Shown: positions 5,119 to 34,889 of the stretch, piece by piece | How the letters are laid out: each line of letters opens with the position of its first letter | Position numbering within the stretch: the first letter of the stretch is position 1 | Origin: Planctomycetaceae bacterium | Lineage (GTDB): Bacteria > Planctomycetota > Planctomycetia > Planctomycetales > Planctomycetaceae | Length of the DNA: 35,365 nt | Direction: 5' to 3' | NCBI GenBank assembly: GCA_021732415.1 | Contig: JAKFVC010000068.1 | Coordinates: 1-35,365 of the forward strand | The notes under the pieces: generated by a model | Databases searched by the model: none | What the model was told of the DNA's origin: nothing | The model's input: the letters and a program-made list of their open reading frames with translations, nothing else | Program-made: the position numbers and the translations under genes

Positions 5119-5132
5119 AGTGACACGCTACT

Positions 5133-7108: not shown

Positions 7109-7152
7109 GTTTCAGAGTTCTGTGACTCGTGTTGTGTAAATATCTAATGACT

Positions 7153-7240
7153 AATGACTAATGACTAAATCCTAATGACTAAAAAGACGGCTGCCAAATC
7201 TTCACTCCTTTTAGACATTAGGATTTAGACATTAGACATT
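7153..7240. repeat. 32-bp imperfect inverted repeat built from AATGACTA units
   Basis: Between nuoD and nuoE. The left arm 7153-7184 is made of tandem AATGACTA-like units. The right arm 7209-7240 is its reverse complement except at three positions, each at the same place in the unit (GACTA against GTCTA). A long hairpin could form in the 135-base gap. Confidence 0.8.
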
Positions 7241-7243
7241 TCC

Positions 7244-8458: not shown

Positions 8459-8480
8459 ATCCACCGCCACTTTCTGCATC

Positions 8481-8577
8481 GTAGCCCGACTCGTTGTAGC
8501 CCGACTCTCCGAGTCGGGTGCCTTGAGTCGGGTGCAATTCACATCAACCAGATACCCGACTCAGAGAGTCGGGCTAC
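8481..8577. repeat. Cluster of GTAGCCCGACTC-family repeats between nuoC and nuoD
   Basis: At least four whole or partial units: a fragment at 8481-8492, a full palindrome at 8496-8519 (GTAGCCCGACTC then TCCGAGTCGGGT), a half unit near 8524-8535, and an opposite-facing unit at 8554-8577. The cluster fills the gap and abuts the nuoD start, so it would be transcribed as stacked hairpins. Confidence 0.85.
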
Positions 8578-19453: not shown

Positions 19454-22400
19454 ATGAGATCCTGTCTGCTGCCTCGCTGTGGATACATTGCTGCAAGTTT
19501 GATCGTTTTCGTCAGTTCCACCTCTCTGTCATCGGCGGCAGATCCCGTCAAAGAACCTCGCCCGGGGACCTTGCCCACTGATGCGCAAGGAAAGCCACTA
19601 AATTTTGACTTCGAAACGGGGACGCTCAAGGACTGGACCGCCGAAGGTGCGGCGTTCGTCAAGCAACCTGTCGAGGGTGATCTCGTCCACAAACGCCGGG
19701 GAGACATGAAGAGCGATCACGCCGGCAAATTCTGGATTGGCGGTTATGAGATCGCCCAGGACCCTCCTGTTGGCACGTTGACCTCGGTGCCGTTTGTGGT
19801 GCGACAGCCGTTTGCCAGCTTCCTGGTCGCCGGCGGTCCGACTGATACGACCTGCGTTGAAATTGTCGCGAAAGACGGCGACAAGGTGATCCGCCGCGTG
19901 GCGGGCGACGAATCCGAAACGCTGAAGCCTATCCTCGTCGACCTGTCAGCTTACGTCGGCAAAGAGATCTTCATTCGCCTCGTCGATAAGAATACCGGCC
20001 ACTGGGGCCACATCAATTTTGATGACTTCCGCTTCCATGACAAGAAGCCCAACTTTCCCGAACGCACGGCTCCGCTGCAGCCGGACACCTTCGCCCATGC
20101 AGGACTGTCGCCCGAAGAGGCTGCCAAGGCGATGAAGGTTCCGCCCGGCTTCCAAGTGTCGCTCTTTGCTGGCGAACCCGACGTTCAACAACCGATCGCG
20201 ATGGCCTTCGATGACCGCGGCCGGCTGTGGGTCGCCGAGGCCTTTTCCTATCCCATCCGTCTGCCTGAGGATCAGGCCAAAGATCGGATTGTGATCTTCG
20301 AAGACAAGGACCAAGACGGCAAATTCGACACCCGAAAGGTGTTCACCGACAAGCTCAATCTGGTCAGTGGAATGGAACTCGGGTTCGGTGGAGTCTACGT
20401 GGGCTCGGCCCCCAACCTGCTGTTTATTCCCGATGCCGATGGGGATGATACCCCCGATGGCCCGCCGCAAGTGTTGCTCGACGGCTGGGGTTATCAGGAT
20501 ACTCACGAGACCCTGAATTCCTTCATCTGGGGCCCGGATGGCTGGCTCTACGGCTGCCACGGTGTCTTCACGCATTCGCGAGTCGGCGCGCCGGGAACTC
20601 CGGACGACAAGCGGGTTCCCCTCAACGCCGGTATCTGGCGTTATCATCCCACGCGGCATCAGTTCGAACTGTTTGCCGAGGGAACCAGCAACCCGTGGGG
20701 CGTCGACTTCAACTCCAAGGGGCAGGCGTTTGAGACCGCCTGCGTGATCCCGCACCTCTATCACATGATTCAAGGGGCCCGGTATCAGCGGCAGGCGGGG
20801 ACCCATTTCAATCCCTTCACGTACGACGACATCAAGACGATCGCCAAGCATCGCCATTGGCTGGGTGGCACTCCACATAGCGGCAACGGCAAGTCAGACG
20901 CCGCCGGTGGCGGTCACGCCCATGCGGGTGCGATGGTCTATCTGGGCGGAACGTGGCCCCAGCAATATCACGACCAGTTGTTTATGAACAACATCCATGG
21001 AGCACGTCTCAACATGGATGCCCTCGCAGCGAATGGTTCGGGATATGTCGGCGACCGGGCTCCGGATTTCCTGTTTGCCAACGACATCTGGTCACAGATT
21101 CTCTATCTGACATACGGTCCGGACGGCAACGTCTACATGATCGACTGGTACGACAAAAACCAGTGTCATCACGGAAACATCCCCGGTCACGACCGGACCA
21201 ACGGACGCATCTTCAAGATCAGCTACACCGGGGCCGAGGGTGCCGCTCCCGCACAGCGTCCTGATGCGGGGCTCAATTTGCGTCTCAAGACGGATGTGGA
21301 ATTGGCCGAACTGCAGCTCGATACGAATGACTGGTTCGCCCGGCACGCCCGCCGCATCCTGCAAGAACGGGCCGCAGGGTTTGGCGGCAATGCGGCAGCC
21401 AAGCCGAAGATCGCCCTCCCGGCACTTAATAGTTTGACTCAGCTGACTATGAAGGGCGCCGACGAAGTCCGTCGGTTACGTGGCGTGTGGGGATTGCATG
21501 CTTCGGGGCTGCTTGTTCCGCCTTTGCAACTCATCGCTCTGAAGGATGCGAGCCCCTACGTTCGCGCCTGGACGATTCAATTGGCGTGCGAACAAGGCCG
21601 TCCCGCGCAAACGGTCTTTAACAAGATGGCCGAACTGGCACAGAGCGATCCGTCACCCGTGGTCCGCATGTATCTCGCCAGTGCTGCGATGAGACTCCCC
21701 ATCGCCGATCGCACCGCGCTGTTGCCGGCGTTGCTCAGTCATGCCGAAGACGCCAGCGATCACAATCTGCCGTACCTCTACTGGTATGCCGCCGAATCGC
21801 TCGCTTCTGCTGATCCGCAAGCCGGGTTGAAGCTCATTGAGGCCGCCAAGATCCCCCTCGTCCGTGGCTATCTGATTCGCCGGTTGACTCAAACCAATGA
21901 CCCGGCAATTTTGAACCAGCTCATCGCTCTGGTACTGGGCAAGTCCGCACAACCTGCCGATCAGTTGCTGGCTCTCAAAGAAATCGCGGAAGGCCTGCGC
22001 GGTCGTCGACAGGTCCCCATGCCGGACGGTTGGAGCGAACTCTATCGGCAATATGCGAAAAGCGAAGACGCTGGCGTGCGTGCGGTTGCCCTCAATCTGG
22101 CGATTACTTTCGGCGATCCTCAAGCCTTGGCCGCCCGGCAGTTGCTGTTGGCCAATCCTGAGGCTGACATGGCAGAACGCGCGGCCGCCATCGACGCCCT
22201 CGTCACCAGCAAGGCTCCGAACCTCGCCCCACTACTGCAAAAGTTGCTGGCCACCAAAGAGCTGGCTGGAGCCGCAGTCCGTGGATTGGCAACCTACGAC
22301 GATCCCAAAACGCCCGAAGCCATCCTCGCTGCCTACAACCAGTTCGACGCGGCCCAAAAACGAGACGCGTTAAATACTCTGGCTTCGCGGCCGACGTATG

Positions 22401-24718
22401 CCGTCGCCATGTTGAAAGCGGTGGAACTGAAAAAGGTACCGGCAGCCGACCTCTCAGCCGATCTGGTCCGCCAGTTGCGAAGCTTGAAGAACGAAGAGAT
22501 CGAACCCTATATCACCAAGGTCTGGGGTACGTTGCGTGACACGCCAGCCGATAAGGCCCAGCTGATCACGTCTCTACGCGCCATGCTGCGGGCCGCCCCG
22601 AAGGATACTCAGCGGCCCGACTTGTCGCTGGGCCGTGCGATCTACGTGAAGACCTGCCAGCAATGTCACACACTGTTCGGGACCGGGTCGAAAGTCGGCC
22701 CCGAATTGACCGGCTCCAATCGCGCCGATTTGAACTACATTCTCTCGAATATCGTCGATCCGAGTGCTCAGATTGGCAAAGACTATCAGGTACAAGTCAT
22801 CGTCACGACTGAAGGTCGCACACTGAATGGCATCGTGAAAGGTGAGGATCAAAACGCACTCACTCTGGCCACCGCCAACGAAATTGTCGTTGTTCCCAAA
22901 CCGGAAATCGACGTCCGCGTTACCAGCGATAAGTCGATGATGCCGGACGACATTCTCAAACCGTTCAATGAGCGTGAAATACGGTCGCTCATCGCCTACC
23001 TCGCCAGCCCGGGCCAGGTGCCGCTGGCTGTTGGCGGTGGGGCTCCCGCGGTGATGTTCAATGGCAAAGATCTCACCGGCTGGACCGGCAACACCGAGCT
23101 CTGGTCGGTCGAGAATGGCGAACTGGTAGGTCGGACGGCGGGACTCAAACGCAACGAGTTTCTGATCAACGAGCTGCTCGTCGATGACTTCCGTTTCGAA
23201 GTCGAAGTCAAGCTCGTCAATGACGAAGGCAACAGCGGCATTCAGTTCCGCAGCCTGGCACAGCCCGAAGGGGAAGTGAAGGGATATCAGGCCGACATCG
23301 GCGTCGGCTGGTGGGGCAAGCTCTACGAAGAACACGGCCGAGCTTTGCTGTGGGACAAGTCGGGGGAAGCTCACGTCAAGAAGGGAGACTGGAACCGTTA
23401 TGAAATCGTGGCGATCGGCAGCCGAATCCGCACTTTCATTAACGGCCAGCCGTGCGTCGAACTCGAAGATCCCCCCGGCGCCCGCTCGGGAATTACGGCG
23501 TTGCAACTGCATTCTGGGGGCAAGACCGAAGTCCGTTATCGCAACTTCAAGCTGACGCCGATTGTCTCGATGCCCAAACCCGCGGGAGGCGGTGCCAGTC
23601 TCTCCAGCACGCCAACCGCTCCGAGCACAGCCATTAAATTCCGCAAGACGACCATCGAGTTGCTCGAGAACAAATTCCGTAGCGAAGGGGTCGCGATGGG
23701 CGACTTCAACAACGACGGCCTGCTGGACATCGCCGCCGGCAGCATGTGGTACGAGGCCCCCAAATGGACGCCCCATTCGATCCTCGAAAAACCGCAGGAG
23801 TTCGCCAAGAAGACTTACAGCAACACGTTCTGCAACTGGGCCGAAGACCTCGACCGAGACGGACGCCAGGACTTGATCGTGGTCGACTTCCCCGGCAATC
23901 AAACTTGGTGGTTCCAGAATCCGGGCGCGAAGGGTGGACCGTGGCGCAAGGTGGAAATGGTTCCAGTTACCAACAATGAAAGTCCCACGTATCTCGACGT
24001 CGATGGCGACGGACGCCGCGAACTGGTCTATGGCGATGCACAAGGCCGCATGTGTCTGGCGCGGCCTGACGCTGATCCGTTTGCACCGTGGAAAGTCACG
24101 CCAATCAGCGGGCCCAAGGCTCCTGGCACCGAGCGTTTCTCGCACGGACTGGGTATCGGTGATGTCAACCGCGACGGCATCAACGACATCATCGGGACCG
24201 CCGGCTGGTGGGAAGGAACGGCTGCCGCCAGCAACGAACCGTGGAAGTTCCACGCTGCCAAATTGGGTGAAGCCCAGGCCCAGATGTATGCCTACGACTA
24301 CGATGGCGACGGCGACAACGACGTCGTCGGCACAAGTGCCCATCGCCGCGGTATGTGGTTTCACGAGCAAACCGCCGACGGCTGGAAGACGCGCGAATTC
24401 GACAAGTCGATCGCTCAAACGCACGCCCTGTGCCTGGCCGACATCAATGGCGACGGCCTTCCGGACCTCGTCACGGGCAAGCGTTATTACGCACACAACG
24501 GCAACGATCCCGGAGAAGACGAACCCCCGTACCTGGCCTGGTACGAACTACAACAGACCGACAAAACGGCCAAGTGGGTCCAGCACATCATCGACGAGGA
24601 CAGCGGAGTCGGCACGCACTTCGAAACGTACGACATGAACGGCGACGGCCTGCTGGACATCATCGTCGCGAACAAGCGCGGGGTCTATCTGTTCGAGCAG
24701 ACTCGGGAGAAGCCGTAA
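19454..24718 (+). CDS. Secreted multidomain PVC-type dehydrogenase / cytochrome c / DUF1080 / FG-GAP protein
   Basis: A 1754-residue protein starting with a signal peptide (ends near SSAADPV). In order: a lectin-like beta-sandwich (about 45-205); a PVC-type beta-propeller dehydrogenase domain beginning PPGFQVSLFAGEPDV (about 225-600); a helical HEAT-like region (about 620-1040); a cytochrome c domain with CQQCH at 1068-1072 and a likely Met ligand in KSMMPDD; a DUF1080 (3-keto-disaccharide hydrolase-like) domain from VMFNGKDLTGW (about 1200-1370); and FG-GAP/VCBS calcium-type repeats such as DFNNDGLLDIAAG, DVDGDGRREL and DMNGDGLLDII (about 1410-1750). Probably oxidises and cleaves modified sugars outside the cytoplasm; that is inferred from the families. 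AGGAG lies eight bases before the ATG. Convergent with the DUF1501 gene. Confidence 0.93.
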   Translation: MRSCLLPRCGYIAASLIVFVSSTSLSSAADPVKEPRPGTLPTDAQGKPLNFDFETGTLKDWTAEGAAFVKQPVEGDLVHKRRGDMKSDHAGKFWIGGYEIAQDPPVGTLTSVPFVVRQPFASFLVAGGPTDTTCVEIVAKDGDKVIRRVAGDESETLKPILVDLSAYVGKEIFIRLVDKNTGHWGHINFDDFRFHDKKPNFPERTAPLQPDTFAHAGLSPEEAAKAMKVPPGFQVSLFAGEPDVQQPIAMAFDDRGRLWVAEAFSYPIRLPEDQAKDRIVIFEDKDQDGKFDTRKVFTDKLNLVSGMELGFGGVYVGSAPNLLFIPDADGDDTPDGPPQVLLDGWGYQDTHETLNSFIWGPDGWLYGCHGVFTHSRVGAPGTPDDKRVPLNAGIWRYHPTRHQFELFAEGTSNPWGVDFNSKGQAFETACVIPHLYHMIQGARYQRQAGTHFNPFTYDDIKTIAKHRHWLGGTPHSGNGKSDAAGGGHAHAGAMVYLGGTWPQQYHDQLFMNNIHGARLNMDALAANGSGYVGDRAPDFLFANDIWSQILYLTYGPDGNVYMIDWYDKNQCHHGNIPGHDRTNGRIFKISYTGAEGAAPAQRPDAGLNLRLKTDVELAELQLDTNDWFARHARRILQERAAGFGGNAAAKPKIALPALNSLTQLTMKGADEVRRLRGVWGLHASGLLVPPLQLIALKDASPYVRAWTIQLACEQGRPAQTVFNKMAELAQSDPSPVVRMYLASAAMRLPIADRTALLPALLSHAEDASDHNLPYLYWYAAESLASADPQAGLKLIEAAKIPLVRGYLIRRLTQTNDPAILNQLIALVLGKSAQPADQLLALKEIAEGLRGRRQVPMPDGWSELYRQYAKSEDAGVRAVALNLAITFGDPQALAARQLLLANPEADMAERAAAIDALVTSKAPNLAPLLQKLLATKELAGAAVRGLATYDDPKTPEAILAAYNQFDAAQKRDALNTLASRPTYAVAMLKAVELKKVPAADLSADLVRQLRSLKNEEIEPYITKVWGTLRDTPADKAQLITSLRAMLRAAPKDTQRPDLSLGRAIYVKTCQQCHTLFGTGSKVGPELTGSNRADLNYILSNIVDPSAQIGKDYQVQVIVTTEGRTLNGIVKGEDQNALTLATANEIVVVPKPEIDVRVTSDKSMMPDDILKPFNEREIRSLIAYLASPGQVPLAVGGGAPAVMFNGKDLTGWTGNTELWSVENGELVGRTAGLKRNEFLINELLVDDFRFEVEVKLVNDEGNSGIQFRSLAQPEGEVKGYQADIGVGWWGKLYEEHGRALLWDKSGEAHVKKGDWNRYEIVAIGSRIRTFINGQPCVELEDPPGARSGITALQLHSGGKTEVRYRNFKLTPIVSMPKPAGGGASLSSTPTAPSTAIKFRKTTIELLENKFRSEGVAMGDFNNDGLLDIAAGSMWYEAPKWTPHSILEKPQEFAKKTYSNTFCNWAEDLDRDGRQDLIVVDFPGNQTWWFQNPGAKGGPWRKVEMVPVTNNESPTYLDVDGDGRRELVYGDAQGRMCLARPDADPFAPWKVTPISGPKAPGTERFSHGLGIGDVNRDGINDIIGTAGWWEGTAAASNEPWKFHAAKLGEAQAQMYAYDYDGDGDNDVVGTSAHRRGMWFHEQTADGWKTREFDKSIAQTHALCLADINGDGLPDLVTGKRYYAHNGNDPGEDEPPYLAWYELQQTDKTAKWVQHIIDEDSGVGTHFETYDMNGDGLLDIIVANKRGVYLFEQTREKP

Positions 24719-24811: not shown

Positions 24812-26197
24812 CTATCCGACCATTAGTTCTGGCACTGGCCGCCCTGACGAAATCCGATGCGGCAGGCCATTTGGGCCGGGAACCATCGCCCGCGGATTTA
24901 CACCCAGCAGCGCGAAGATCGTCGCCGTGACGTCGGCGGGCGATACCGGATTCTCGGTGACATAGGCTGCGTGGTCGTCGGTGCGACCATACACCAATCC
25001 GCGAGGCACCCCGCCGCCCGCCATCAGAATGCTGAAGGCGTGCGGCCAGTGATCGCGACTGGCCCAAGGCTGACTGATCCGCGGAGTCCGTCCGAAGTCA
25101 CCCATCCACACCACCAACGTGTCATCCAGAAGTCCCCGCTGATCCAGATCCTCCAATAACGCGGAGAGGGTCTGATCAGCCCGCGGCATCAACGTGTTCG
25201 CGGTCAGTGGGAAATGATTGCGATGCGTATCCCACGGATTGTTGGCCGGGCGGGCTCCCTTGCCGTCGGCCCAGTCCTGGTTCTCGCGGCCCCAATAGAC
25301 AGTCACAAATCGCGCTCCCGCTTCCACCAGACGCCGCGCCAGTACCGTCGACTGCCCGTGGCGATAGCGGCCATATCGGTCCTGAGTCTGAGCCGATTCT
25401 TGATCCAGCGCGAACGCCTCGCCCACCTGCGGACTGCGGAGGATCTCGAGGGCCTGACGGTGATAGATGTCGTAACGCTGCCCGTCCGGATCAGCATCGA
25501 TCGGCGATGCGGAAGCGGCGGGATGCAAGGCCCCCAACAACTTGTCACGCAAGTTCAGCCGTTCGATCGACAACTCCTGACGCAGTTGGAACTCCGGCTG
25601 CGAGATCTGTCCCGCTGGCGAGAGTCGCACACGAAACGGATCGAACGACGACCCCAGAAAGCCCGCGCTTTGCCCCGGCAGAATGCGGCCTTCCATGTGC
25701 ATCGTTTCGGGCAGTTCGATGACCTTGGGCATTGCCGCTGGAGATGGATCTACGCAGCCAAACGCGGCCGCCATGTGCGGCACATCATCCGCTTCCACCT
25801 TGAGCCCACCCGCCGTACTGACGTGTCGGTAACCCGTCAGCATCTGGTAGACGGCCGGATCGTGGACCGTCTGCTCGTGGCAGACCGAACGAATGAGTGT
25901 CATCCGGTGCATCTGCTGCGCCAGCCGCGGACAGAGTTCCCCGATTTCCAAGCCGCCGACAGACGTGGAAATGGGATGATACGGACCACGAATCTCACGC
26001 GGGGCTCGAGGTTTCAAGTCCAGCAGATCGATGTGACTGGGGCCACCATCCATGTAGAGCAGAATGCACGCCTTGGCCCGCGCTGGACGGTTTTCCAACT
26101 GCTCGGCGGCGAGTGACTGACTCAGCGTCAATCCCGTCCAACCCAGCGCCCCCACCTGCAGGACTTCGCGTCGCAACCAGTCGGTTGAGCTTGCCAT
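24812..26197 (-). CDS. DUF1501 protein with twin-arginine leader
   Basis: A 461-residue member of the DUF1501 family (alkaline-phosphatase/sulfatase-like fold), abundant in planctomycetes and of unknown activity. The N-terminus MASSTDWLRREVLQVGALGW has the paired arginines and hydrophobic segment of a Tat export signal. Typical family stretches are CILLYMDGGPSHIDLLDLKP, LIRSVCHEQTVHDPA, VWMGDFGRTPRI and GRDHWP-like ASRDHWPHAFS. The frame is open upstream, but this ATG is chosen because it begins the Tat signal and lies 11 bases after the ComEA-like stop. That close spacing suggests one transcript with the ComEA-like gene. DUF1501 genes often pair with DUF1549/DUF1553 cytochrome genes; none is adjacent here. 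Confidence 0.88.
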   Translation of the reverse strand: MASSTDWLRREVLQVGALGWTGLTLSQSLAAEQLENRPARAKACILLYMDGGPSHIDLLDLKPRAPREIRGPYHPISTSVGGLEIGELCPRLAQQMHRMTLIRSVCHEQTVHDPAVYQMLTGYRHVSTAGGLKVEADDVPHMAAAFGCVDPSPAAMPKVIELPETMHMEGRILPGQSAGFLGSSFDPFRVRLSPAGQISQPEFQLRQELSIERLNLRDKLLGALHPAASASPIDADPDGQRYDIYHRQALEILRSPQVGEAFALDQESAQTQDRYGRYRHGQSTVLARRLVEAGARFVTVYWGRENQDWADGKGARPANNPWDTHRNHFPLTANTLMPRADQTLSALLEDLDQRGLLDDTLVVWMGDFGRTPRISQPWASRDHWPHAFSILMAGGGVPRGLVYGRTDDHAAYVTENPVSPADVTATIFALLGVNPRAMVPGPNGLPHRISSGRPVPELMVG

Positions 26198-26208
26198 AGA
26201 CGCTTCTT

Positions 26209-26646
26209 TCAGGGGGTTGAGTTCGACGCTGCGGGCACAGTTTTTTGGTCGCTGACGATCAACCAGGGGCGGATCTGTTCCCACGTTTTGGGACCAATCC
26301 CGGGCACCCGGCTGACATCTTCAATCGTCTGGAAGTGACCATGCTCCTCGCGGAAGGCCACAATCTTCTTGGCCGTCTTTTCGCCGATGCCTTCCAACAA
26401 AGTCCATTCGAACCAGGGAGCCCGATTCACATCCAATTGATAATCGTACTTCCGCGCCGGCAGCCGGTCGATCTCAATCGGCGTTTGGCCCCAACCTTTC
26501 AACCGGACCCAATACAGCCCCATCAAGGCCACGGCCACGATGACCAGAGTCCCCACAAACAGTTGGTCGGTTCGTCGCAGCCACAAAGTCCAGGCATCAA
26601 CTGGCTCGGGAGTAGGCGGGGCAGGGGCCTCAACAGGTGAGTTCAT
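26209..26646 (-). CDS. Membrane-anchored ComEA-like helix-hairpin-helix protein
   Basis: A 145-residue protein with a single N-terminal membrane helix (LFVGTLVIVAVALMGLYWV). The C-terminal helix-hairpin-helix DNA-binding domain reads LDVNRAPWFEWTLLEGIGEK, then the second hairpin VSRVPGIGPKTWEQIRPWL. The layout matches ComEA, which binds DNA outside the cytoplasmic membrane during uptake. Whether that is its role here is not shown; no other competence gene is in the window. It precedes the DUF1501 gene by 11 bases. Confidence 0.85.
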   Translation of the reverse strand: MNSPVEAPAPPTPEPVDAWTLWLRRTDQLFVGTLVIVAVALMGLYWVRLKGWGQTPIEIDRLPARKYDYQLDVNRAPWFEWTLLEGIGEKTAKKIVAFREEHGHFQTIEDVSRVPGIGPKTWEQIRPWLIVSDQKTVPAASNSTP

Positions 26647-27058: not shown

Positions 27059-27538
27059 TCAACGCCGTGGCGGAGCGAGCTTGATCTTTTCGATATAGCG
27101 TATCGCTTGCTGAGTCCGCTGATCGAAACGCCCAGTGCAGGCCGTCATCGCCTTGATGACGTACTCATAATGCAGCTTATGGTCAGCATCGATTTCCACT
27201 TCCGTGTCCTTCGACGCAGGACCGCCGGGCGTACCACCGATTGCACGCAAGATTTCGCTATTCAGTCGCTCGAAGGCTCGGTCATCGTTCCCGAGATGAC
27301 GTTGGCCGATCTTGAGGCTGACCAGATTCCCGTCGGCATCCGCGACGAGACGAACTTTGATATCTTCTGTTGGGAAGCCGCCCGGAATACCATCGGCCGG
27401 CATGTTGATATCGAACGTGCCTTCGGCCTGGACGAACTTCAGCGTCAGCATGAAGAAGATCATCAACTGAAAGACGCAGTCGATCATCGGCGTCATGTCG
27501 GGTTTGACCATCGCCAAAGCGGATTCGCGACGTCGCAT
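27059..27538 (-). CDS. ExbD/TolR-family biopolymer transport protein (third copy)
   Basis: A 159-residue inner-membrane protein: a short cytoplasmic N-terminus, one membrane helix and a periplasmic domain. The motif KPDMTPMIDCVFQLMIFFML holds the proton-pathway aspartate (Asp20). It is a clear tandem paralogue of the gene at 27836-28330: VQAEG, FDINMP and the stretch GGTPGGPASKDTEVEIDAD are shared. The start was set at MRRRESALAM because AGGA lies seven bases upstream and it matches the paralogue in length; the upstream extension is probably untranslated. A strong hairpin with flanking A and T runs lies before it. Confidence 0.88.
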   Translation of the reverse strand: MRRRESALAMVKPDMTPMIDCVFQLMIFFMLTLKFVQAEGTFDINMPADGIPGGFPTEDIKVRLVADADGNLVSLKIGQRHLGNDDRAFERLNSEILRAIGGTPGGPASKDTEVEIDADHKLHYEYVIKAMTACTGRFDQRTQQAIRYIEKIKLAPPRR

Positions 27539-27623
27539 GGCAGGATCCTTCAGATTTGAAGATTCGATCAGAGGTGCGCTGACACCTTCGAATCCTAATC
27601 GGAAATGGTCCCTGTACAAAGAG

Positions 27624-27649
27624 AAAAATCACGGCGAACCGTGATTTTT
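27624..27649 (-). terminator. Perfect hairpin with A/T-run flanks (possible two-way terminator)
   Basis: AAAAATCACGG, a four-base loop, then CCGTGATTTTT: an 11-base perfect stem ending in a T-run on either strand. It lies between the second and third ExbD genes, so the third copy may be expressed at a lower level or from its own promoter. Confidence 0.65.
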
Positions 27650-27700
27650 GGGGAGCGACGGGAGATCTCACTTCAATCGGTGGCTAACACCGAATCAAAG

Positions 27701-27807
27701 TATGAGAGTACCAGAGTGTGAGGGTATGAGGGTCGAGCCAATTCCATGCATATCAGTCGGCAAGCTGACTCCGACACTCTCACACACTCATACTCTCAAA
27801 CCCTCAT
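27701..27807. repeat. TATGAGAGT/GTGAGGGT word repeats in opposite orientation
   Basis: Positions 27701-27733 contain TATGAGAGT and TGTGAGGGTATGAGGGT; 27774-27807 contains the same words in reverse complement (ACACTCTCACACACTCATAC...). They form an imperfect inverted repeat between two ExbD genes. Confidence 0.65.
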
Positions 27808-27835
27808 GACAGCGCCAATTATCAAATACCCGGCA

Positions 27836-28330
27836 TCAATTCCCCGGCCGGCGGGGCGGGGCGAATTTGATCTTTTCGATGTAGCGCACCACGTTCTTGG
27901 TCCGCTCATCGAAACGTCCGGTGCAGGCGCTGATGGCACTGATCACATAGGAATAATGCAGATTGTAGTCCGCATCAATTTCGACTTCAGTGTCCTTCGA
28001 TGCGGGGCCTCCGGGAGTACCACCGATCGCACGCAGGATTTCCCCGTTCAACTGGACGAAGGCCCGTTCGTCATTGCCCAGCTTGCGGCTGCCCATCTGC
28101 AGGCTGACCAGATTCCCGTTGGCATCGGCGATCATGCGGACCTTCAGGTCCTGTGCCAACGGGTCTGCCGTTCCCTGCGATTGCCCGATCGGCATGTTGA
28201 TGTCGAAGTTGCCTTCCGCCTGGACGAACTTCAGCGTCAACATGAAGAAAATCATCAACTGGAAGACGCAATCGATCATCGGCGTCATATCCGGTTTGGG
28301 CATCGCCAATTCTGCTTTGCGGCTGGCCAT
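27836..28330 (-). CDS. ExbD/TolR-family biopolymer transport protein (second copy)
   Basis: A 164-residue protein with the same layout as its neighbours. The membrane-helix motif KPDMTPMIDCVFQLMIFFML includes the conserved Asp20. The periplasmic domain runs from FDINMPIGQSQGT to the Lys/Arg-rich C-terminus IKFAPPRRPGN. It is much closer to the third copy than to the first, pointing to a tandem duplication. The ATG (MASRKAELAM) is the first in the frame; the ribosome site is weak. It lies 95 bases after the first ExbD gene, and that gap holds a GTAGCCTGACTC-family palindrome. Confidence 0.9.
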   Translation of the reverse strand: MASRKAELAMPKPDMTPMIDCVFQLMIFFMLTLKFVQAEGNFDINMPIGQSQGTADPLAQDLKVRMIADANGNLVSLQMGSRKLGNDERAFVQLNGEILRAIGGTPGGPASKDTEVEIDADYNLHYSYVISAISACTGRFDERTKNVVRYIEKIKFAPPRRPGN

Positions 28331-28385
28331 AAACGTCTCTGCTCTATCGATCTACCTACTCGGGCGGTATTGATCTGCAACTGTT

Positions 28386-28409
28386 GTAGCCTGACTCTCC
28401 GAGTCGGGA
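28386..28409. repeat. GTAGCCCGACTC-family palindrome between ExbD genes
   Basis: Single unit reading GTAGCCTGACTC then TCCGAGTCGGGA, nearly self-complementary. Same family as the copies in the nuo operon, more than 19 kb away. Confidence 0.75.
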
Positions 28410-28425
28410 GACAAGAAATCGGACA

Positions 28426-28890
28426 CTATTCCTTGGGGGCTTCTTCCATCGCCTGCAAGGCGAACTTTTCGTAGCCCTCTTCCTGGTAGAGCTTGATCAA
28501 GTCCTGAATGGCCCCGATGGGGACTTCCGAATCCGATCGCAATTTGATCGTCGTCTTGATTCCATCGCCTGGATGCTGCAGTTTGTACATCTGCAGATCC
28601 TTCTTGATGCGCGGCGTCATCTGACTGATCGACACGTCTTCGCCAGGCAGAAACACCAGCGGATCCTTGACCCGTTTCGAACCGTCCGCATTGCGAATGA
28701 AGCCCACGTTGATCGTGACTTCGTCTTCGCGCTTGACCTTGGGCGGCTTCGCGATTTCGCTTTCGGGCAGTTTGACGCGTTCGTCCGCCTGCGTGCTTTC
28801 GAAATTGATGACCAGCATGAAGAAGGTGATCAACTGGAAGACGCAGTCAATCATCGGCGTCATATCGACTTCCGGTGCGTCCATAGCCAT
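28426..28890 (-). CDS. ExbD/TolR-family biopolymer transport protein (first copy)
   Basis: A 154-residue protein with the signature VDMTPMIDCVFQLITFFMLV and the proton-pathway Asp15. Its periplasmic domain differs clearly from the other two: it has a Lys/Glu-rich segment (ESEIAKPPKVKREDEVTINV) and ends in LIKLYQEEGYEKFALQAMEE. The ATG has AGGA seven bases upstream. It follows the ExbB-like gene by 65 bases. The difference from copies two and three suggests a different periplasmic partner or a heteromeric complex. Confidence 0.92.
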   Translation of the reverse strand: MAMDAPEVDMTPMIDCVFQLITFFMLVINFESTQADERVKLPESEIAKPPKVKREDEVTINVGFIRNADGSKRVKDPLVFLPGEDVSISQMTPRIKKDLQMYKLQHPGDGIKTTIKLRSDSEVPIGAIQDLIKLYQEEGYEKFALQAMEEAPKE

Positions 28891-28955
28891 GGATCATTCC
28901 TGACGTTTCAAATTGAATGAGATTCGAACCACTGAGTCCAACAGGTTCCGCAGGC

Positions 28956-29888
28956 TTACGTCGACGGATTGGCCGGAGCCGCACTGGTGGCGGATGCCGG
29001 GGCTGCGCCGGTGGCGGGCTTCTTCGCCGAGGCGAACAGCTTGCCCATCAGGCCTTCCGAAACCATACCCACTTCGAACTGCAGCTTGCCGATCTTGTTC
29101 TTGAACAGACCGAACGCGAAGATCGCCGGGATGGCCACGACGAGGCCTTCCATCGTCGTCACGAGGGCGGTCATAATACCTTCAGCCAGTTCCTTGGGCT
29201 TGGGTGACGTTTCCGATTCCGCAATAACGCGGAAGGAGTCGATCATACCCTGCACCGTGCCGAGCAACCCGAGCATCGGGGCCGTCGCGACGATCAAACC
29301 GAGGTAACTCATCTTGTGCTCGAGATACATCGATTCTTCGTCACCCGCTTCGGCCATACCGGCCATCGCTTCTTCTTGCCCCTTGGACAACCGGGCCATA
29401 CCAGCCGTCAGCACCTTACCGAGGTACGAGTCGTTGGCCTTGGCGGTCTCATAAGCACCCTGGTAATCGCGAGCATTGATCTTCTGCTCGAACGATTCGA
29501 TCAGTGCGGCAGGTAGGAAGTTTTCCCGGCGAAACGCCATGAAGTTCATCGAGATCAGGGCCACCAGGACGAACGATTCAACGGCGATACACGCACCGAA
29601 CGGTCCCGAGGCGACGATGATCCACATCAGATAGCTACGGCCAGGCTGAGGGGGAGCGGCGGCAGCGGGCTTTTCTTCGGCAGGAGCCTCTTCTCCTTCA
29701 GCGGGAGCGGCTTCCTCCTCTGCAGGAGCCTCTTCAGCCTTGGCGGCCTTATCCTTCTTGCCTTGAGCGTACAAACTGCTTTGCCAGCCGGTTTGCACCG
29801 TTACGGTAGTCATCCCGAAGGCGACCGCCAGAACGAACATCCAGTACCAGGTTTGCAGACTATCTTTTCGCCGCATGAACTGAATCAT
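28956..29888 (-). CDS. MotA/TolQ/ExbB-family proton channel protein
   Basis: A 310-residue inner-membrane protein. It has an N-terminal hydrophobic segment (WYWMFVLAVAFGMTTVTVQT), then a Glu/Ala/Pro-rich stretch, then the ExbB core. Core motifs are SYLGLIVATAPMLGLLGTVQ followed by GMIDSF, and TALVTTMEGLVVAIPAIFAF, with the polar threonines that line the ion path in this family. The C-terminal tail is Ala/Pro-rich. The acidic N-terminal insert (KAEEAPAEEEAAPAEGEEAP) should be periplasmic and is unusual. The start was taken at MIQFMRRKDSL; the longer upstream frame looks untranslated. With three ExbD-like partners it probably forms a proton-motive-force-driven motor. Confidence 0.9.
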   Translation of the reverse strand: MIQFMRRKDSLQTWYWMFVLAVAFGMTTVTVQTGWQSSLYAQGKKDKAAKAEEAPAEEEAAPAEGEEAPAEEKPAAAAPPQPGRSYLMWIIVASGPFGACIAVESFVLVALISMNFMAFRRENFLPAALIESFEQKINARDYQGAYETAKANDSYLGKVLTAGMARLSKGQEEAMAGMAEAGDEESMYLEHKMSYLGLIVATAPMLGLLGTVQGMIDSFRVIAESETSPKPKELAEGIMTALVTTMEGLVVAIPAIFAFGLFKNKIGKLQFEVGMVSEGLMGKLFASAKKPATGAAPASATSAAPANPST

Positions 29889-30078
29889 CGTCCTGTTCAA
29901 CTCCAGTTTGTCACTAAGCCTATGAGATCTTGACTGGCCCTGATGCAGGACCAAATCGATGGGGTAAAGGTCAGTTTTTGGTGAATGCGGCGGTCAGCGC
30001 CAGTTCAATTTGACGCACAACACCTACCAGAATACCACTTTTTCGAACTTTCGGGGACTTTTATCTTCACAATCCCCG

Positions 30079-30107
30079 ATTCTAAACAGACCGGCTGACA
30101 GTTTCCA
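30079..30107 (-). promoter_or_regulatory. Candidate promoter ahead of the ExbB-ExbD genes
   Basis: On the minus strand, TGGAAA (30102-30107) is followed after 17 bases by TAGAAT (30079-30084). These match the consensus -35 and -10 at four and five of six bases. It lies in the 262-base gap upstream of the ExbB-like gene. Confidence 0.3.
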
Positions 30108-30150
30108 GACGTCCGGGACTTGACGTCTCGCATTTGTCAAGTTCGGGGTC

Positions 30151-31218
30151 TCAGCCTGCGGGTGCTGCTGGCGATTTCAGCTTTTCCGTCCACGGGCTGT
30201 TGGGATATTCCGAGGTCAACTTGTCGGCAGCCTCGTTCGCCCGGTCGGGTTGTTGCACGGCAGTCCACAACCGCGACAAGTGATACAACGCCTCGGGATG
30301 GAACGATTTTTCGGTCGAAAACAGCACGTCGACGTGCAAATAAGCGAGCAACGCGTCTTTGTTCTTGGCACTGGCCTGGAAGCAGTCACCCTGTCTTACA
30401 TACGCTTCGGCCTGGACCTTGGAGTCTTCCGGAGCCGATTGATTGATGACCTCATCGAGCAACTTGATGGCTTCCGGGAACTTGCTTTGCAGTTGCAGGC
30501 AGCGAGCCAGTCCCAGCTTGGCTTCCAGTTTGCGAGATTCCTCGGCCGGACCCATCGCCGTCATCCCGGCGACCGCTTCAAACTCCGTCTGGGCCTCCGC
30601 AGTCTTATTCTCCAGCAAGGCCACGCGAGCCAAAGCAATCTTCGACGCCATCTTTTGATCGTTGCCTGACGCTTTTCCCAAGGTTTCCGCGGCCGTTTTC
30701 GCAGCGGCGGCATCCTTATTCACCAGATTCAAGTCGACCAGCAAGCCGGCCGCATTGTAAAAGTGCCGGCTGTCACCATTCTTGCTTTGGAAATCGGCCA
30801 GCTTCTTCAACGCATCGGGAATCCTCTTGGGATCAGTCAGAGCGATGCGCGCCTGGGCACGCAATGTGAAGTAGTCGATATCCAGCTTCACGTTGGGGTT
30901 ATCACTCTTGTTGTCGGTGGCCGCTTTCGCAAAACCGTCGATGGCTTGCTGCAACCGACCGCCCGCTTCGTGATTTCGCGCCGACTTCAGCGCGGCGGGC
31001 TCGCCGTCCCACAGGATTTCGCTGACTTCGTTCGCGGGAATGTCTTTCTTTTCCCCTTTGGTCGTTTCGAAACTGACCTTGTCCTTGGTCACCCCGGTGA
31101 CCTTGCCGCTGCTTTTCGTCGCGACGCCACGTTGTTCGAGGACATCGGCGGCCGTCACCACGGACGCCGAACAGACCAACATCAGTGCCACCAATGACAG
31201 ACGAACGGTGCGAGGCAT
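30151..31218 (-). CDS. Secreted TPR-type repeat protein
   Basis: A 355-residue protein with a signal peptide (MPRTVRLSLVALMLVCSASV, cut near VTAAD). A short strand-rich module follows (GKVTGVTKDKVSFETTKGEK), then helical repeats with TPR character. Examples are RLQQAIDGFAKAATDN, GLARCLQLQSKFPEAIKLLD, and at the C-terminus YHLSRLWTAVQQPDRANEAA. Probably periplasmic scaffolding. The ATG has AGGA nine bases upstream; the open frame upstream of it is not needed. It lies between the 1154-aa TPR gene and the ExbB-like gene, in the same direction. Confidence 0.85.
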   Translation of the reverse strand: MPRTVRLSLVALMLVCSASVVTAADVLEQRGVATKSSGKVTGVTKDKVSFETTKGEKKDIPANEVSEILWDGEPAALKSARNHEAGGRLQQAIDGFAKAATDNKSDNPNVKLDIDYFTLRAQARIALTDPKRIPDALKKLADFQSKNGDSRHFYNAAGLLVDLNLVNKDAAAAKTAAETLGKASGNDQKMASKIALARVALLENKTAEAQTEFEAVAGMTAMGPAEESRKLEAKLGLARCLQLQSKFPEAIKLLDEVINQSAPEDSKVQAEAYVRQGDCFQASAKNKDALLAYLHVDVLFSTEKSFHPEALYHLSRLWTAVQQPDRANEAADKLTSEYPNSPWTEKLKSPAAPAG

Positions 31219-31396
31219 GGAACCAATTCCTTCGAGAATATACTGACTGCTGCGTGACTTATGTGAGTCGCGGAACGTCGTCAGACTTCCGCCGCATTTG
31301 AATAAACACAAGAATTCTTACGAATTCTTCTACCGGATTTCTGTGATCGATTGTTGGAGTTCAGTCCTATTGTTTATTGCAAGTCGTCAACAACCA

Positions 31397-31412
31397 TTGG
31401 GCTTACGCCCAA
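31397..31412. terminator. Small hairpin after the large TPR gene
   Basis: TTGGGC, loop TTAC, GCCCAA: a perfect six-base stem 13 bases past the large TPR gene's stop. There is no T-run, so it may be a repeat remnant, a processing site or a weak terminator. Confidence 0.35.
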
Positions 31413-31424
31413 CGCTCGCCTTCG

Positions 31425-34400
31425 TTAAGCCTTCGGCTTGGTGGGCGGTTTGGTTTTGGGACTGGCAGTCGCGGCCCCCGCGGAACTGGCCGTCGCACCC
31501 GCAGTCGACTTCGGTGCGGCCTTTTTAGCGGGTGGGGCTGCGACTACGATCTTCGGCATCTCGCCAGCGGCCAGGGATGCCAGTGACGGACGTTTGGGCT
31601 TGCTGCTCCTCATCACGAACCAGACGCCTCCACCGACCACAAACAACAACAGCACGCCACCCATCAGCAACATCGAAGAGCTTTGCGCCGTTTCTTCGCT
31701 TTTCGCAGCCCGCTTATTGTCGGCCACCGTCTGACGCTTTTTCTTCTTTACTGCCTGAACCTTCTTATCTTCTTCCGCTTCCTTGGCCTCAGCGGCCTTG
31801 GCCTCAGCGACCTCAGACTCGGGCGGATTGCGAACGATATCGGTAGGCGTCAAATTCATCGCCGTCTGGATCTCACGATGCAACCCATTGAACTTGGCAT
31901 ATTGAGCCTCGGTCATATTGATCTGCAGGGCCGTGCGCTGGATCTCGGTGATGGCCCGCCCCATTTCGCCCGTCTTTTTCGTGGCCTGCTTACCACCTTC
32001 AGGCATTGCCGCGGCCGCTTTGAACCGACACAGGGCAATGTTGTAGCGCGCTTCCAGGAACGAGTCCATATACTTAGCCGCCTCGGGAGACTGCATCAGT
32101 CGCTTGGACAGTTCGGCCCAGCCCCACATGCCAATGGGTTTCTGTTTCGTAGCCGTCAAAGCCTTATCCCCGCTCATCGCCACCGCCCATTGCTTGGGTG
32201 ATTCAGTCGTCCCGGCAGCAGCCCAGTCCTGGAAGACGTAACACGCTTCGGTCTGGGTATCGATGGCATTCTTGCGCTTCTGCAGGAGCTCCGTGATCCC
32301 TTCGACCGCGGCTTCGAACTCACCCGCCTTACGCTTGCAAGCCACCAGTTGTGCCTTCGCGGCCAGCAATTGCGGGTCGGTGCAGAACGTGGGGTCGCCT
32401 CCGGCCTTGGCGATCAATTCATTGTAGGCCGTGCTGCCCTGTGCAAAGTACGTTGCGGCAACCGTCTTGTCCGGGGTCCCTTCACCTAACGACACATACA
32501 TCGCACCGATCCAGGCCAGCGAGTTGTAATTCTGGCCTTCTTTGCGCGCCAGCATGTTCGACAGGAAGCTCTCGAACGACTTGAGAACCGTCTTGTGCTG
32601 ATCAGGATTGGCCTTGGCCAGACGATCCAGCTCTTCCTTGAACTGCTTGCCCAAAGCGATATAAATCGGAAGAATGTCCTGCCCCTGACCCGTGGCGATC
32701 TTTTCCAGCTCGGTCATCGCCTTGCGAGCGTTTTCCAGGTTCTGCAAGCCGATGTACGACCGCAGGATCTGCTTGTAAACTTCCTGGGCAAACCGGCCGC
32801 TCTTCACGCCGCTGGCCGGTCGCTTTTCCCCTTCCGCGACAGCGATGGCAGTGACAACCGCCCGCTTATCCGTTTCCAGCAACTTGAGCGCTTCGGCGTA
32901 TTGTGTGGTCTGATTGGCGATCTGGGCCAGCGTCAATTTTGCCGTCGCCAAGTCGTCCGGCAGCACTTCAGTGTCGGCCAACTTCGGCTCCAGGGTGGCG
33001 ATGACCTTCTTCAGAGTTTCCTGGGCCTTGGTCTGATATTCGAGCAACTTGGCGGCGGGAGGACGTTCGCCTTCGGGCTTGTTGTAGCCTTCAATGGCCG
33101 CTTCCCACAACGTCTGCCCCAGCATCAACTGCACCTTCAAATAGGATGCAGAATCAGCCGGCACTTTCTCGAACGTTTCGGCCGCTTTGCCGTAATCCTT
33201 GATCTGCAGATACATCTTGCCGAGCATTTCCAGGGCTTCAATCGCCTTCGGAGTTCCCGGCCAGGTCGCCACGATGAAGTCCGAAATCCCGATCACCTTC
33301 TCGATGTCGGTCTGCTTGTCGTTATTGCCCTTCGCGTTGTAGGCCTGCGCATAGGCGGCCATCGCCAGGTAGGCGGAATCAGACGGCAGTGATTCGGACT
33401 CTTCGTCCTTCGCATACCGCCGGGCCACGAATTCACCCAGTACCGCCGATTCGTAAGAACGCTTTTGCTCGTAGTAGACGTAGCACAACGAATACCGGCA
33501 GGTATTGACTTCCTTGATCTTCGAATCAGCCTTCCGCAACGACAAAGCGAGGTTCAACATCCGAGCCGTCTCTTCGAGATGGGCTTCGAAGGACTTCTGA
33601 TAACGCTTGATCTCTTCGGGATCCTTGGCGGCACGGATCAGATCCTTGTTTTCCTTGATCTTGTTGACCAGTTCGCGGGCCTTGCCGTAGGCCGTTTCAA
33701 AGTCCTTGGGGTCTGTGCCGTCGTAATTCAACGCGGCCATCAGGCGGGTGATCATGGCCTGCGACGGATCGCGATATTCGCCCCCCGTACGATTGACCAA
33801 ACGGGCCAGCCCCAGGGCCTCGGTCAGGACCTTCTTCTTGTCATCAGGCTTGACGTCACGCGCCTTAGCCATATTCTCCAGAGCGCGCGCCTTTTCGTAG
33901 CGAATCCCGGTCCCGTAGCGGGTCCGAATCATCTGGGGATTCGCCTTGATCCACTCGTCGGCCAGCTTATCGACGAGAATATAGTCGGCCTTCTTATCCG
34001 TATTGAGACAGATCAATTTGAAATGGGTCACCTGTGCCTGCAGGTTCTTCATCACGTTCGAGTCGGCATTGTGGCTCAGCAATTCGCCGTACAATCCGAG
34101 GGCTTTCAGCAGATCACCCTGTTCCTCGAAGCATTTGCCCTGGTACATGCGGGCATACAGACCAGCCACCTGGCTGCGATGCTTCTGATGAATCAGTTCG
34201 AACTTCCCGGCAGCGTCCTTCAGAGTCGACTGATACTTAGGGTCCTCTTTATCGTAAGCCTGGGCCTCTTCGTACTGGACGATGGCGACGTCTAGCTCCG
34301 CCCGGATCTTCATCCGTTCCGTATCGTTTTTGGCTTCGAATTTTTCGGTTTCCTTGGGATCAACGAAAGCACCGAAGTCTTTCCATTGCTTGTCGTACTT

Positions 34401-34889
34401 CGTCGCTGCATCCTGGAAGAGTTTGCGGGCGGCCTCGAAATTGTCTCGGGCCTGCTTCTGAAAGTCGGCTCGCTTATTGGCATTGCTGGGAGACCGCGAC
34501 TGGATCACCGCCACTTTGCCTTTGCCCACGAGCACATTACCGGCATCCGAGTTGGCTTTGGCAGCCTTGGGATGGTCCGGATTGGCCTTCAAGAATTGCT
34601 CGAGGAACGCCTGCGCACGACCGAGAGTGGCATTGGCCGCTTCCGGGTTGCGCTGCGTCTTCGCCAATTGAATCAGCGTCGCCGCCTTCTCGAAGGGAAT
34701 GATGGCCTTCACGTCCGGCGGGAGATCCGCGCGGCCTTCGACCGCTTCGAGATACTCCAGAGCCGTGTCGAAGTATTCCCGATCACGCAGGCCTTCGACG
34801 AAGTTCAAATAGGGTTCCGCTGCTGACAACCGTGAGGTCAGCAGACATAGAACCGACAAAAACACCAGGGCAAACCGGTGCCGTGCCAT
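31425..34889 (-). CDS. Large TPR-repeat protein with signal peptide and C-terminal membrane anchor
   Basis: A 1154-residue protein. The N-terminal signal is MARHRFALVFLSVLCLLTSR, cut near LSAAEP. About 1000 residues of helical TPR-like repeats follow, for example YDTALEYLEAVEG-type pairs near the start and ALEMLGKMYLQIKDYGKAAE in the middle. Near the end are a charged Ala/Glu/Lys segment, one membrane helix at about 1073-1094 (MLLMGGVLLLFVVGGGVWFV), and a Lys/Pro/Ala-rich tail of 60 residues. The expected topology is a periplasmic repeat body held in the inner membrane with a basic cytoplasmic tail. First gene of the TPR-ExbB-ExbD block. The ATG is taken because it begins the signal peptide; the ribosome site is weak. 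Confidence 0.88.
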   Translation of the reverse strand: MARHRFALVFLSVLCLLTSRLSAAEPYLNFVEGLRDREYFDTALEYLEAVEGRADLPPDVKAIIPFEKAATLIQLAKTQRNPEAANATLGRAQAFLEQFLKANPDHPKAAKANSDAGNVLVGKGKVAVIQSRSPSNANKRADFQKQARDNFEAARKLFQDAATKYDKQWKDFGAFVDPKETEKFEAKNDTERMKIRAELDVAIVQYEEAQAYDKEDPKYQSTLKDAAGKFELIHQKHRSQVAGLYARMYQGKCFEEQGDLLKALGLYGELLSHNADSNVMKNLQAQVTHFKLICLNTDKKADYILVDKLADEWIKANPQMIRTRYGTGIRYEKARALENMAKARDVKPDDKKKVLTEALGLARLVNRTGGEYRDPSQAMITRLMAALNYDGTDPKDFETAYGKARELVNKIKENKDLIRAAKDPEEIKRYQKSFEAHLEETARMLNLALSLRKADSKIKEVNTCRYSLCYVYYEQKRSYESAVLGEFVARRYAKDEESESLPSDSAYLAMAAYAQAYNAKGNNDKQTDIEKVIGISDFIVATWPGTPKAIEALEMLGKMYLQIKDYGKAAETFEKVPADSASYLKVQLMLGQTLWEAAIEGYNKPEGERPPAAKLLEYQTKAQETLKKVIATLEPKLADTEVLPDDLATAKLTLAQIANQTTQYAEALKLLETDKRAVVTAIAVAEGEKRPASGVKSGRFAQEVYKQILRSYIGLQNLENARKAMTELEKIATGQGQDILPIYIALGKQFKEELDRLAKANPDQHKTVLKSFESFLSNMLARKEGQNYNSLAWIGAMYVSLGEGTPDKTVAATYFAQGSTAYNELIAKAGGDPTFCTDPQLLAAKAQLVACKRKAGEFEAAVEGITELLQKRKNAIDTQTEACYVFQDWAAAGTTESPKQWAVAMSGDKALTATKQKPIGMWGWAELSKRLMQSPEAAKYMDSFLEARYNIALCRFKAAAAMPEGGKQATKKTGEMGRAITEIQRTALQINMTEAQYAKFNGLHREIQTAMNLTPTDIVRNPPESEVAEAKAAEAKEAEEDKKVQAVKKKKRQTVADNKRAAKSEETAQSSSMLLMGGVLLLFVVGGGVWFVMRSSKPKRPSLASLAAGEMPKIVVAAPPAKKAAPKSTAGATASSAGAATASPKTKPPTKPKA

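Follow-up and report, generated by a model that had tools for sequence, protein, structure and literature searches.

Solenoid, TPR, ExbB, and ExbD genes in a single run

We analyzed a 35,365-nucleotide stretch of DNA from Planctomycetaceae bacterium (assembly GCA_021732415.1, contig JAKFVC010000068.1, forward-strand positions 1 to 35,365; the whole stretch is referred to here as the window), which carries a cassette of genes for two secreted proteins, T1 and T2, and for the ExbB and ExbD subunits of a proton-driven motor. The cassette is a single run of six minus-strand genes in the order T1-T2-ExbB-ExbD-ExbD-ExbD, with intergenic gaps of 65 to 216 bases. An earlier note on this DNA had described six same-strand genes encoding two secreted tetratricopeptide repeat (TPR) proteins, one ExbB, and three ExbDs, and this observation is confirmed, with all six open reading frames at the coordinates given. 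Below, S denotes the profile of cassette TPR-secretins, P a long PilM, and N and O two membrane proteins; L and G numbers designate loci and genomes. The six genes, with the evidence for each in parentheses, are as follows.

31425..34889, minus strand: T1, secreted alpha-solenoid (TPR-like) protein of 1154 amino acids (aa), candidate periplasmic scaffold (open reading frame, orthologues, AlphaFold2 model, PDB matches)
30151..31311, minus strand: T2, secreted TPR protein with a small N-terminal beta domain (Pfam TPR, AlphaFold2 model, PDB matches)
28956..29954, minus strand: ExbB/TolQ-family proton-channel subunit (PF01618, TolQ structure, invariant Thr, tree)
28426..28890, minus strand: ExbD of the proximal type (D3), membrane Asp at residue 15 (PF02472, E = 1.4e-18; clade)
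27836..28330, minus strand: ExbD of the distal type (D2) (PF02472, E = 2.8e-14; pairs with D1, SH-aLRT 99)
27059..27619, minus strand: ExbD of the distal type (D1), recent duplicate of D2 (PF02472, E = 1.5e-14; tree, identity, upstream sequence)

Judging from the upstream motif GAAGGA present in each case, translation probably begins at internal ATG codons in two of these frames, at 31218 in T2 (giving 355 aa) and at 27538 in D1, the last ExbD.

The ExbB gene product matches the MotA/TolQ/ExbB proton-channel family (Pfam PF01618, expectation value [E] = 2.9e-26). A profile of its family retrieved TolQ from the PDB (8odt, E = 3.4e-21), and its closest NCBIfam model is also TolQ (TIGR02796, E = 1.1e-20, under the cut-off of that model). 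Residues T233 and T267 are invariant in 15/15 relatives. The protein has an Ala/Glu/Pro-rich linker and an N-terminal hydrophobic stretch, recognized by eye here and flagged by a hydropathy scan in relatives such as those of L039 and L040.

All three ExbDs match the ExbD/TolR family (E = 1.4e-18 to 2.8e-14), and their family profile matches the PDB entry 6tyi (E = 2.1e-11). The essential membrane Asp, which the earlier note had reported for all three, is invariant across 19/19 aligned ExbDs (alignment A2); in a larger set of 65 ExbDs, 60 fit a regular expression for the motif and the other five also show the membrane Asp. D1 and D2 are 76% identical and are sisters within the distal clade (support of 99 in the Shimodaira-Hasegawa-like approximate likelihood ratio test [SH-aLRT]). 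In the wider ExbD tree, the proximal ExbDs of 32 loci (32/32) fall on one side and the distal ExbDs on the other (SH-aLRT 100). Because D1 and D2 are sisters and the proximal and distal types form two phylum-wide clades, the ancestral motor would have comprised one ExbB and two different ExbDs. By sequence comparison, the third ExbD is a recent copy peculiar to the genome of the window; the trio of ExbDs is thus real here but a local oddity.

T1 has no Pfam or NCBIfam match at E ≤ 0.01, and its classification as a Pfam TPR protein was ruled out on that ground. Its AlphaFold2 model is a single long alpha-solenoid of 45 helices (mean predicted local distance difference test score [pLDDT], 80.5; predicted template-modeling score, 0.49), and the top PDB matches of the model are very large (giant) TPR superhelices. 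We therefore count T1 as an alpha-solenoid, TPR-like protein on the strength of the model and its structural matches; the earlier designation as a TPR protein finds support in these and none in sequence profiles. T1 has two hydrophobic segments, an N-terminal signal sequence and a C-terminal stretch starting at residue 1067 that is followed by an Ala/Lys/Pro-rich tail. Both segments had been proposed, as signal peptide and C-terminal anchor, and both are present; the C-terminal one lies in a low-confidence region of the model and is missing in the relatives of L048 and L049. T2 matches TPR families in Pfam (best E = 2e-7), and its model (mean pLDDT, 92.7) shows a five-stranded N-terminal domain followed by an array of TPR helices. 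Its top PDB match is chain K of 9hmf, the Campylobacter flagellar periplasmic scaffold (E = 3.8e-7; TM score, 0.55 over the query; 14% identity), a likeness at the level of the fold only, with many other TPR proteins ranking close behind.

Orthologues of T1, 25 to 37% identical in alignment, occur in 11 other genomes of the window's own class. A search of 199 genomes of the phylum matched T1 in 27/199 at E ≤ 0.001; the 12 genomes with strong matches (E ≤ 1e-86), the window's own included, all belong to this class. In the neighborhoods around T1, the order T1-T2-ExbB-ExbD-ExbD is intact in 10/12 class genomes, the window's own again counted. In a named set, a strong cassette ExbB was present at 16 loci, 12 of them with both T1 and T2 upstream. 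The neighborhood comparison that the earlier note had proposed as a check thus finds the TPR genes kept beside ExbB and ExbD. That note had also pointed out that TonB, TolA, and Pal are lacking here and had named TonB or TolA as a possible usual partner elsewhere. The window proteins scanned gave no Pfam hit to TonB, TolA, TolB, or OmpA/Pal; no genome-wide search was made for TolA, TolB, or Pal. TonB_C (PF03544) occurs in 1/12 class genomes and not in the window's own; a TonB-type transducer is therefore not the general answer in the class.

Secretin genes and a pilus-like module

To see what accompanies the motor elsewhere, we searched the phylum with a profile of the cassette ExbB, which matched at E ≤ 1e-20 in 185/199 genomes. 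Loci were sampled around the best ExbB, mostly one genome per family with some families represented twice, and others came from the T1 search; gene neighborhoods were mapped with iterated profiles. The recurring gene order was secretin-T1-T2-ExbB-ExbD-ExbD-(second secretin), with a median gap between neighboring cassette genes of 50 bases (from 330 gaps shorter than 1.5 kb, counting those of class loci). Counts were made on 48 loci with an ExbB score of 270 bits or more and 7.5 kb or more of upstream sequence; this set lies outside the class T1 set but includes the class locus L113, and a few families occur twice. In 39/48 loci, a same-strand secretin gene no more than four genes upstream or eight genes downstream matched the S profile (upstream in 38). 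The same 48 loci contained T2 in 39 cases, a T1-profile gene in 39, at least two ExbDs in 47, and a same-strand gene of at least 850 aa in 43. When the filters on ExbB score and flank were lifted, 45/64 loci had the secretin. As a control, we examined 64 named ExbB loci scoring under 270 bits (31/64 from Planctomycetota), and the S secretin was found in none, which for those with an equal upstream flank (at least 7.5 kb) amounts to 0/43. The comparison with the control gives a Fisher P of approximately 8e-22 (relatedness not corrected for). Fourteen of 88 loci lacked ExbB in the gene map and were dropped before counting; four of these (L087, L115, L116, and L121) had lost it to a gene-overlap filter, and three of the four hold an S gene.

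A secretin domain was confirmed by Pfam or NCBIfam in 14/15 S genes scanned at cassette loci: one each in L053, L055, and L105, two each in L058 and L103, and seven of the eight in a rescan of low-scoring genes. The matches in L103 and L105 fall under the NCBIfam cut-offs, and the remaining rescanned gene (L110) shows TPR only and is perhaps a split gene. A lipobox-like motif lies near the N terminus of 50/78 S genes over 700 aa (loose pattern). In a quick ExbB tree, the class-cassette ExbBs (nine, support 97) and the secretin-cassette ExbBs (34) fall together, 43/43, within a clade of 46 rows (SH-aLRT 80) that takes in three others. Among the 16 named loci with strong ExbB, an S match was found in 5; nine of the 16 are labeled Planctomycetia, none of these with S. 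The match in L136 (67 bits, 267 aa, about 8 to 9 kb away) is probably not a cassette secretin.

Several other genes recur at these loci. A gene of ~625 aa follows the ExbDs in 12 loci (L103, L055, and ten more), and both examples scanned encode a sulfatase fused to TPRs. A gene of ~249 aa, encoding a haloacid dehalogenase (HAD) hydrolase in both examples scanned, follows the second secretin region in 13 loci. HAD hydrolases, sulfatase-TPR proteins, uracil-DNA glycosylases, and DHH proteins were all judged probably unrelated and left out of consideration.

In many loci, the first secretin has upstream of it a long PilM (P, ~600 aa; PilM_2 by Pfam in both examples scanned) along with N (~310 to 360 aa) and O (~310 to 350 aa), each with one N-terminal membrane helix by eye and, in one O, an fn3 domain. 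P, N, or O is found there in 20/41 loci with an upstream secretin (P in 17, N in 15, and O in 11), and several of the 41 loci end before this position. The P protein of L105 matches NF045709, Amuc_1101_fam (E = 1.4e-77), whose NCBIfam name is our ground for calling Amuc_1101 PilM-like. The secretin of L103 matches NF042912, Amuc_1098_fam (E = 1.2e-31), and PilQ (E = 9e-31), both under curated cut-offs. On these profile matches, cassette P and S are classed as distant relatives of Amuc_1101 and Amuc_1098. Matches of the Amuc_1098 type were also found in 12/12 other genomes of the Planctomycetes-Verrucomicrobia-Chlamydiae (PVC) group, five of them above the cut-off. Of the PilB/GspE-type ATPase genes (PF00437 matches) listed across 14 genomes, a single one, G012:C3:31855, is closer than 10 kb to a cassette, at about 5.5 kb from the long pilM. 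Judged by gene positions among these listed matches, type II/IV ATPases do not regularly accompany the cassette.

Within the class of the window, both the secretin and P-N-O are encoded away from the motor. Each of the 12 class genomes (12/12) has one large secretin of 1369 to 1814 aa that scores 345 to 409 bits against the cassette profile; that of the window's genome (G000:C126:231-5675, 1814 aa, 376 bits; Pfam secretin, E = 4.3e-21) occupies a separate locus, and a secretin domain was recognized by Pfam or NCBIfam in 3/3 large class secretins scanned. The long PilM was found in 12/12 class genomes and the P-N-O trio in 10/10 examined, on contig C40 in the window's genome. In G024, about 10 kb separates the secretin from the P-N-O locus. 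It seems from these homologies that the machine is whole in the class but split over three loci: P-N-O, the secretin, and T1-T2-ExbB-ExbD-ExbD. The class secretin is preceded by a peptidyl-prolyl isomerase gene in L244 and L251, and by Mfd as well in L244, with similar-sized genes at several other class loci; the isomerase may assist folding of the secretin.

The window's genome contains eight PF01618 matches, and its other ExbB paralogues (L059 to L064) have surroundings of their own. A secretin-like gene (127 bits against the S profile) lies on the opposite strand in L060. In L061 (contig C149, 8352-17916), a 2436-aa protein with TPR and F5/8-type domains directly precedes ExbB-ExbD-ExbD, and this is a second, very different TPR-motor cassette. 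L064 (contig C120, 121-9723) has a MotA/ExbB-like gene after a gene for GTPase-associated protein 1 (GAP1), followed by two proteins with one N-terminal hydrophobic stretch, one of them coiled-coil-like; it is possibly a conflict-type operon. Within the window itself, the cassette is followed on the same strand by a helix-hairpin-helix protein (26209-26646), which we take to be ComEA-like, and a DUF1501 gene (24812-26284). Also in the window are a 1754-aa protein (19454-24718) that combines DUF7133, HEAT repeats, a 3-keto-disaccharide hydrolase domain, and FG-GAP repeats, and a minus-strand run of complex I (nuo) genes (62-8542) comprising chain 6, NADHdh, NuoG-like, NuoF-like, and 49-kDa subunits.

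A candidate proton-driven secretin machine and its alternatives

Gene content, gene order, sequence kinship, fold class, and the conserved residues of the ion path are established by the observations above. From these, we propose with a probability of roughly 0.58 that the six genes provide both the motor and the periplasmic coupling module for a phylum-wide secretin machine that is powered by protons and is of a kind with no member characterized so far. On the best reading of the profile matches, this machine would be related to the pilus-like Amuc_1098-1101 complex of Akkermansia. By analogy with solved 5:2 motors, an ExbB pentamer would surround an axle of two ExbDs, probably a heterodimer of the proximal and distal types because these are two ancient families. 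Proton flow along the path formed by the Thr residues of ExbB and the Asp of ExbD would shift the periplasmic domains of ExbD. T2 and T1, the latter probably with its C terminus as an inner-membrane anchor, would hold the motor and relay its motion to an outer-membrane secretin, predicted to be a lipidated TPR-secretin in most of the phylum. The long PilM and the bitopic N and O proteins may align the secretin across the envelope, and the task of the secretin could be gating or the movement of a polymer or fiber through it. Stoichiometry, lipidation, physical contacts, and the direction of force are likewise put forward as inferences. Coupling of motor, TPR proteins, and secretin is suggested by gene linkage and, within the window's class, by kinship across the separated loci. 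The earlier note had seen here a proton-driven envelope machine, which is still the best reading, without TonB; its further suggestion that the TPR proteins receive the force probably does not hold for the terminal step, given that a TPR-secretin, often with a PilM-like complex, shares the gene run elsewhere. The TPR proteins are probably a scaffold or coupler, with the secretin complex as the driven load.

A number of observations weigh against this proposal. A secretin is missing next to the motor in 9/48 well-covered loci, L113 among them, and the distant T1 and T2 calls rest on iterated, TPR-rich profiles that are able to match other TPR proteins. The cassette-ExbB clade includes its three outsiders at a support of 80. 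At L133, the named locus with the ExbB nearest to that of the window (56%), neither T1 nor T2 adjoins. Two class genomes of genus g4 (L045 and L046) keep T1-T2 without an adjacent ExbB; in one genome of this genus (G087), ExbB-ExbD-ExbD sits at another locus, L113, and in another (G105), the only ExbB found is a diverged one (L114), grouped by the tree with the cassette ExbBs. The motor-secretin link within the class rests on kinship across loci because neither the secretin nor P-N-O stands beside the motor there; in addition, none of the three class secretins scanned has a Pfam TPR match, and N genes in the window's family score just 33 to 61 bits (203 and 257 bits in two others). The scores against the Akkermansia models are low, 262 bits versus a cut-off of 650 for Amuc_1101 and 110 versus 750 for Amuc_1098, and the curated cut-off of the Amuc_1101 model was reached in 0/16 genomes. 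Comparison of N with solved structures gave no significant match (best E = 0.065), and its identification as Amuc_1100 or PilO was dropped. Finally, components of ATPase-driven type II/IV systems are present elsewhere in 14/14 genomes, and the secretin might therefore be served by such an ATPase.

Against this background we weighed four other explanations. The cassette could be a transport or motility motor of the Agl-Glt kind that moves cargo along the envelope, the neighboring secretin belonging to a separate machine. The gene set is the same in kind as the Myxococcus core complex (PMC3169522, in its available text), and in the window's class the motor-TPR unit does stand apart from the secretin; nevertheless, the six window genes give just ExbB, ExbD, and TPR hits with no GltG-like forkhead-associated (FHA)-TonB gene among them, TonB_C is confined to a single class genome, and the secretin shares the gene run in 39/48 loci, all of which makes this explanation unlikely. 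We regard as somewhat less probable again a Tol-Pal-like machine for outer-membrane maintenance, in which T2 would be the CpoB/YbgF part and T1 would replace TolA. The resemblance of ExbB to TolQ in both NCBIfam and the PDB speaks for it, as does a weak match of T2 to tol_pal_ybgF (NCBIfam; E = 2.7e-7, under cut-off). Such a machine is at odds with the lack of a TolA/TonB-type gene in the run, where the hydrophobic parts of T1 are a signal sequence and a C-terminal stretch, and with the lack of OmpA/Pal and TolB hits in the scan of window proteins described above. A scan for a TonB-like SHLS-type motif in the T1, T2, N, O, and P proteins of 13 loci also returned only three matches, all within T1 signal regions.

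Still harder to sustain is derivation from the PVC cassettes in which a von Willebrand factor A (vWA) protein acts as transducer, with the vWA gene lost or moved: no vWA hit was obtained among the neighbors of T1-T2 cassettes scanned (a small part of all neighbors), and a true vWA cassette, L163, has an ExbB outside the 46-row cassette clade. In L163 (7798-14382), the genes run vWA, a 325-aa gene, ExbB, ExbD, ExbD, and an 832-aa protein; this vWA-linked motor cassette is a separate one within the phylum. Least probable, and in our judgment very improbable, is TonB-independent uptake of ordinary nutrients through some other, unlinked receptor, the secretin linkage being without functional meaning. 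TonB_C is missing from 11/12 class genomes while several ExbB genes are kept, which would suit such a role, but secretin and cassette ExbB remain linked in many different families, and class-only clusters (same-strand neighbors of at least 150 aa) span just two or three loci of one genus.

A proton-driven secretin machine thus remains our preferred explanation. Its most specific form, in which a Planctomycetota secretin in a PilM-N-O-secretin complex would be run by a TolQR-type proton motor rather than an ATPase, the axle being an ExbD heterodimer and the stator scaffolds TPR proteins, is offered tentatively, at somewhat less than even odds. To our knowledge, none of the known secretin machines (type II and III secretion, type IV pili, Tad, and filamentous phage export) is driven by a TolQR-type motor. 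Among titles and the beginnings of abstracts in the open-access literature, we found no paper joining an ExbB/ExbD/TolQ motor with a secretin and PilM in planctomycetes; novelty is thus unproven. If the proposal is correct, it would describe a new class of secretion or uptake machine and a new way of energizing the outer membrane, give the planctomycete TPR-ExbB-ExbD-ExbD cassettes a testable job, suggest how the Akkermansia Amuc_1098-1101 complex might be energized, as an idea to be tested, and offer a candidate route for macromolecule uptake by planctomycetes. The last point bears on their uptake of large polysaccharides, described as proceeding by an unknown mechanism in the available text of PMC11131199, in a class largely devoid of TonB_C; that the secretin machine serves as this route is speculation.

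Comparison with known systems

Like TonB-ExbB-ExbD and Tol-Pal, the cassette has proton-channel subunits with conserved Thr and Asp; it differs from them in the lack of TonB, TolA, TolB, and Pal hits among the window proteins, within the limits of the search given above. It differs from type IV pili and type II secretion in that an ATPase gene does not accompany the system, as judged from the PF00437 matches listed for the 14 genomes. The Akkermansia Amuc_1098-1101 complex (PMC4960237) shares the TPR-plus-secretin architecture of the PilQ type and a long PilM of ~600 aa. The planctomycete proteins score under the NCBIfam cut-offs for this complex, and their genes share a run with a proton motor; ExbB and TolQ do not occur in the available main text of that paper.

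Closer in gene content are PVC loci reported in 2025 (Mol Biol Evol, PMC12204202), which in the available text combine a TPR gene, a tolQ-like gene, and two different tolR-like genes with a gene for a vWA protein of a kind whose function is called unknown. TPR gene, tolQ-like gene, both tolR-like genes, and a PVC host are common to these loci and ours. Here, in contrast, ExbB forms a distinct clade, a secretin takes the place of the vWA protein, and no vWA gene was seen among the cassette neighbors scanned; the word "secretin" does not occur in the available text of the paper. Campylobacter PflA/PflB, as described in the available text of PMC12222027, is a periplasmic TPR scaffold that positions 5:2 stators. 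It resembles the cassette in having a periplasmic TPR superhelix with an N-terminal beta domain, and the best PDB match of T2 is that very scaffold, although the match is one of fold and the Campylobacter stators are MotAB serving a flagellum.

Also among the nearest counterparts, together with those PVC loci, is the Agl-Glt complex of Myxococcus and others, in which, according to the available text of PMC3169522, AglR is an ExbB, AglQ and AglS are two ExbDs, and GltD (1191 aa) and GltE (471 aa) both combine a signal peptide with TPRs; the core also includes GltC and GltG, and its genes are clustered as one unit in other bacteria. An ExbB, two ExbDs, and a large and a small secreted TPR protein are likewise found together here, a likeness drawn by description. 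The cassette departs from Agl-Glt in that a TPR-secretin, often with a long PilM, occupies the gene run in most other families sampled and that no FHA-TonB gene like that for GltG was seen among the window and cassette-neighbor proteins scanned. Because no GltG was seen and the TPR proteins were compared with GltD and GltE by description only, membership in Agl-Glt is not claimed; by analogy, the cassette would work like the Agl-Glt core and like stators scaffolded by PflA/B.

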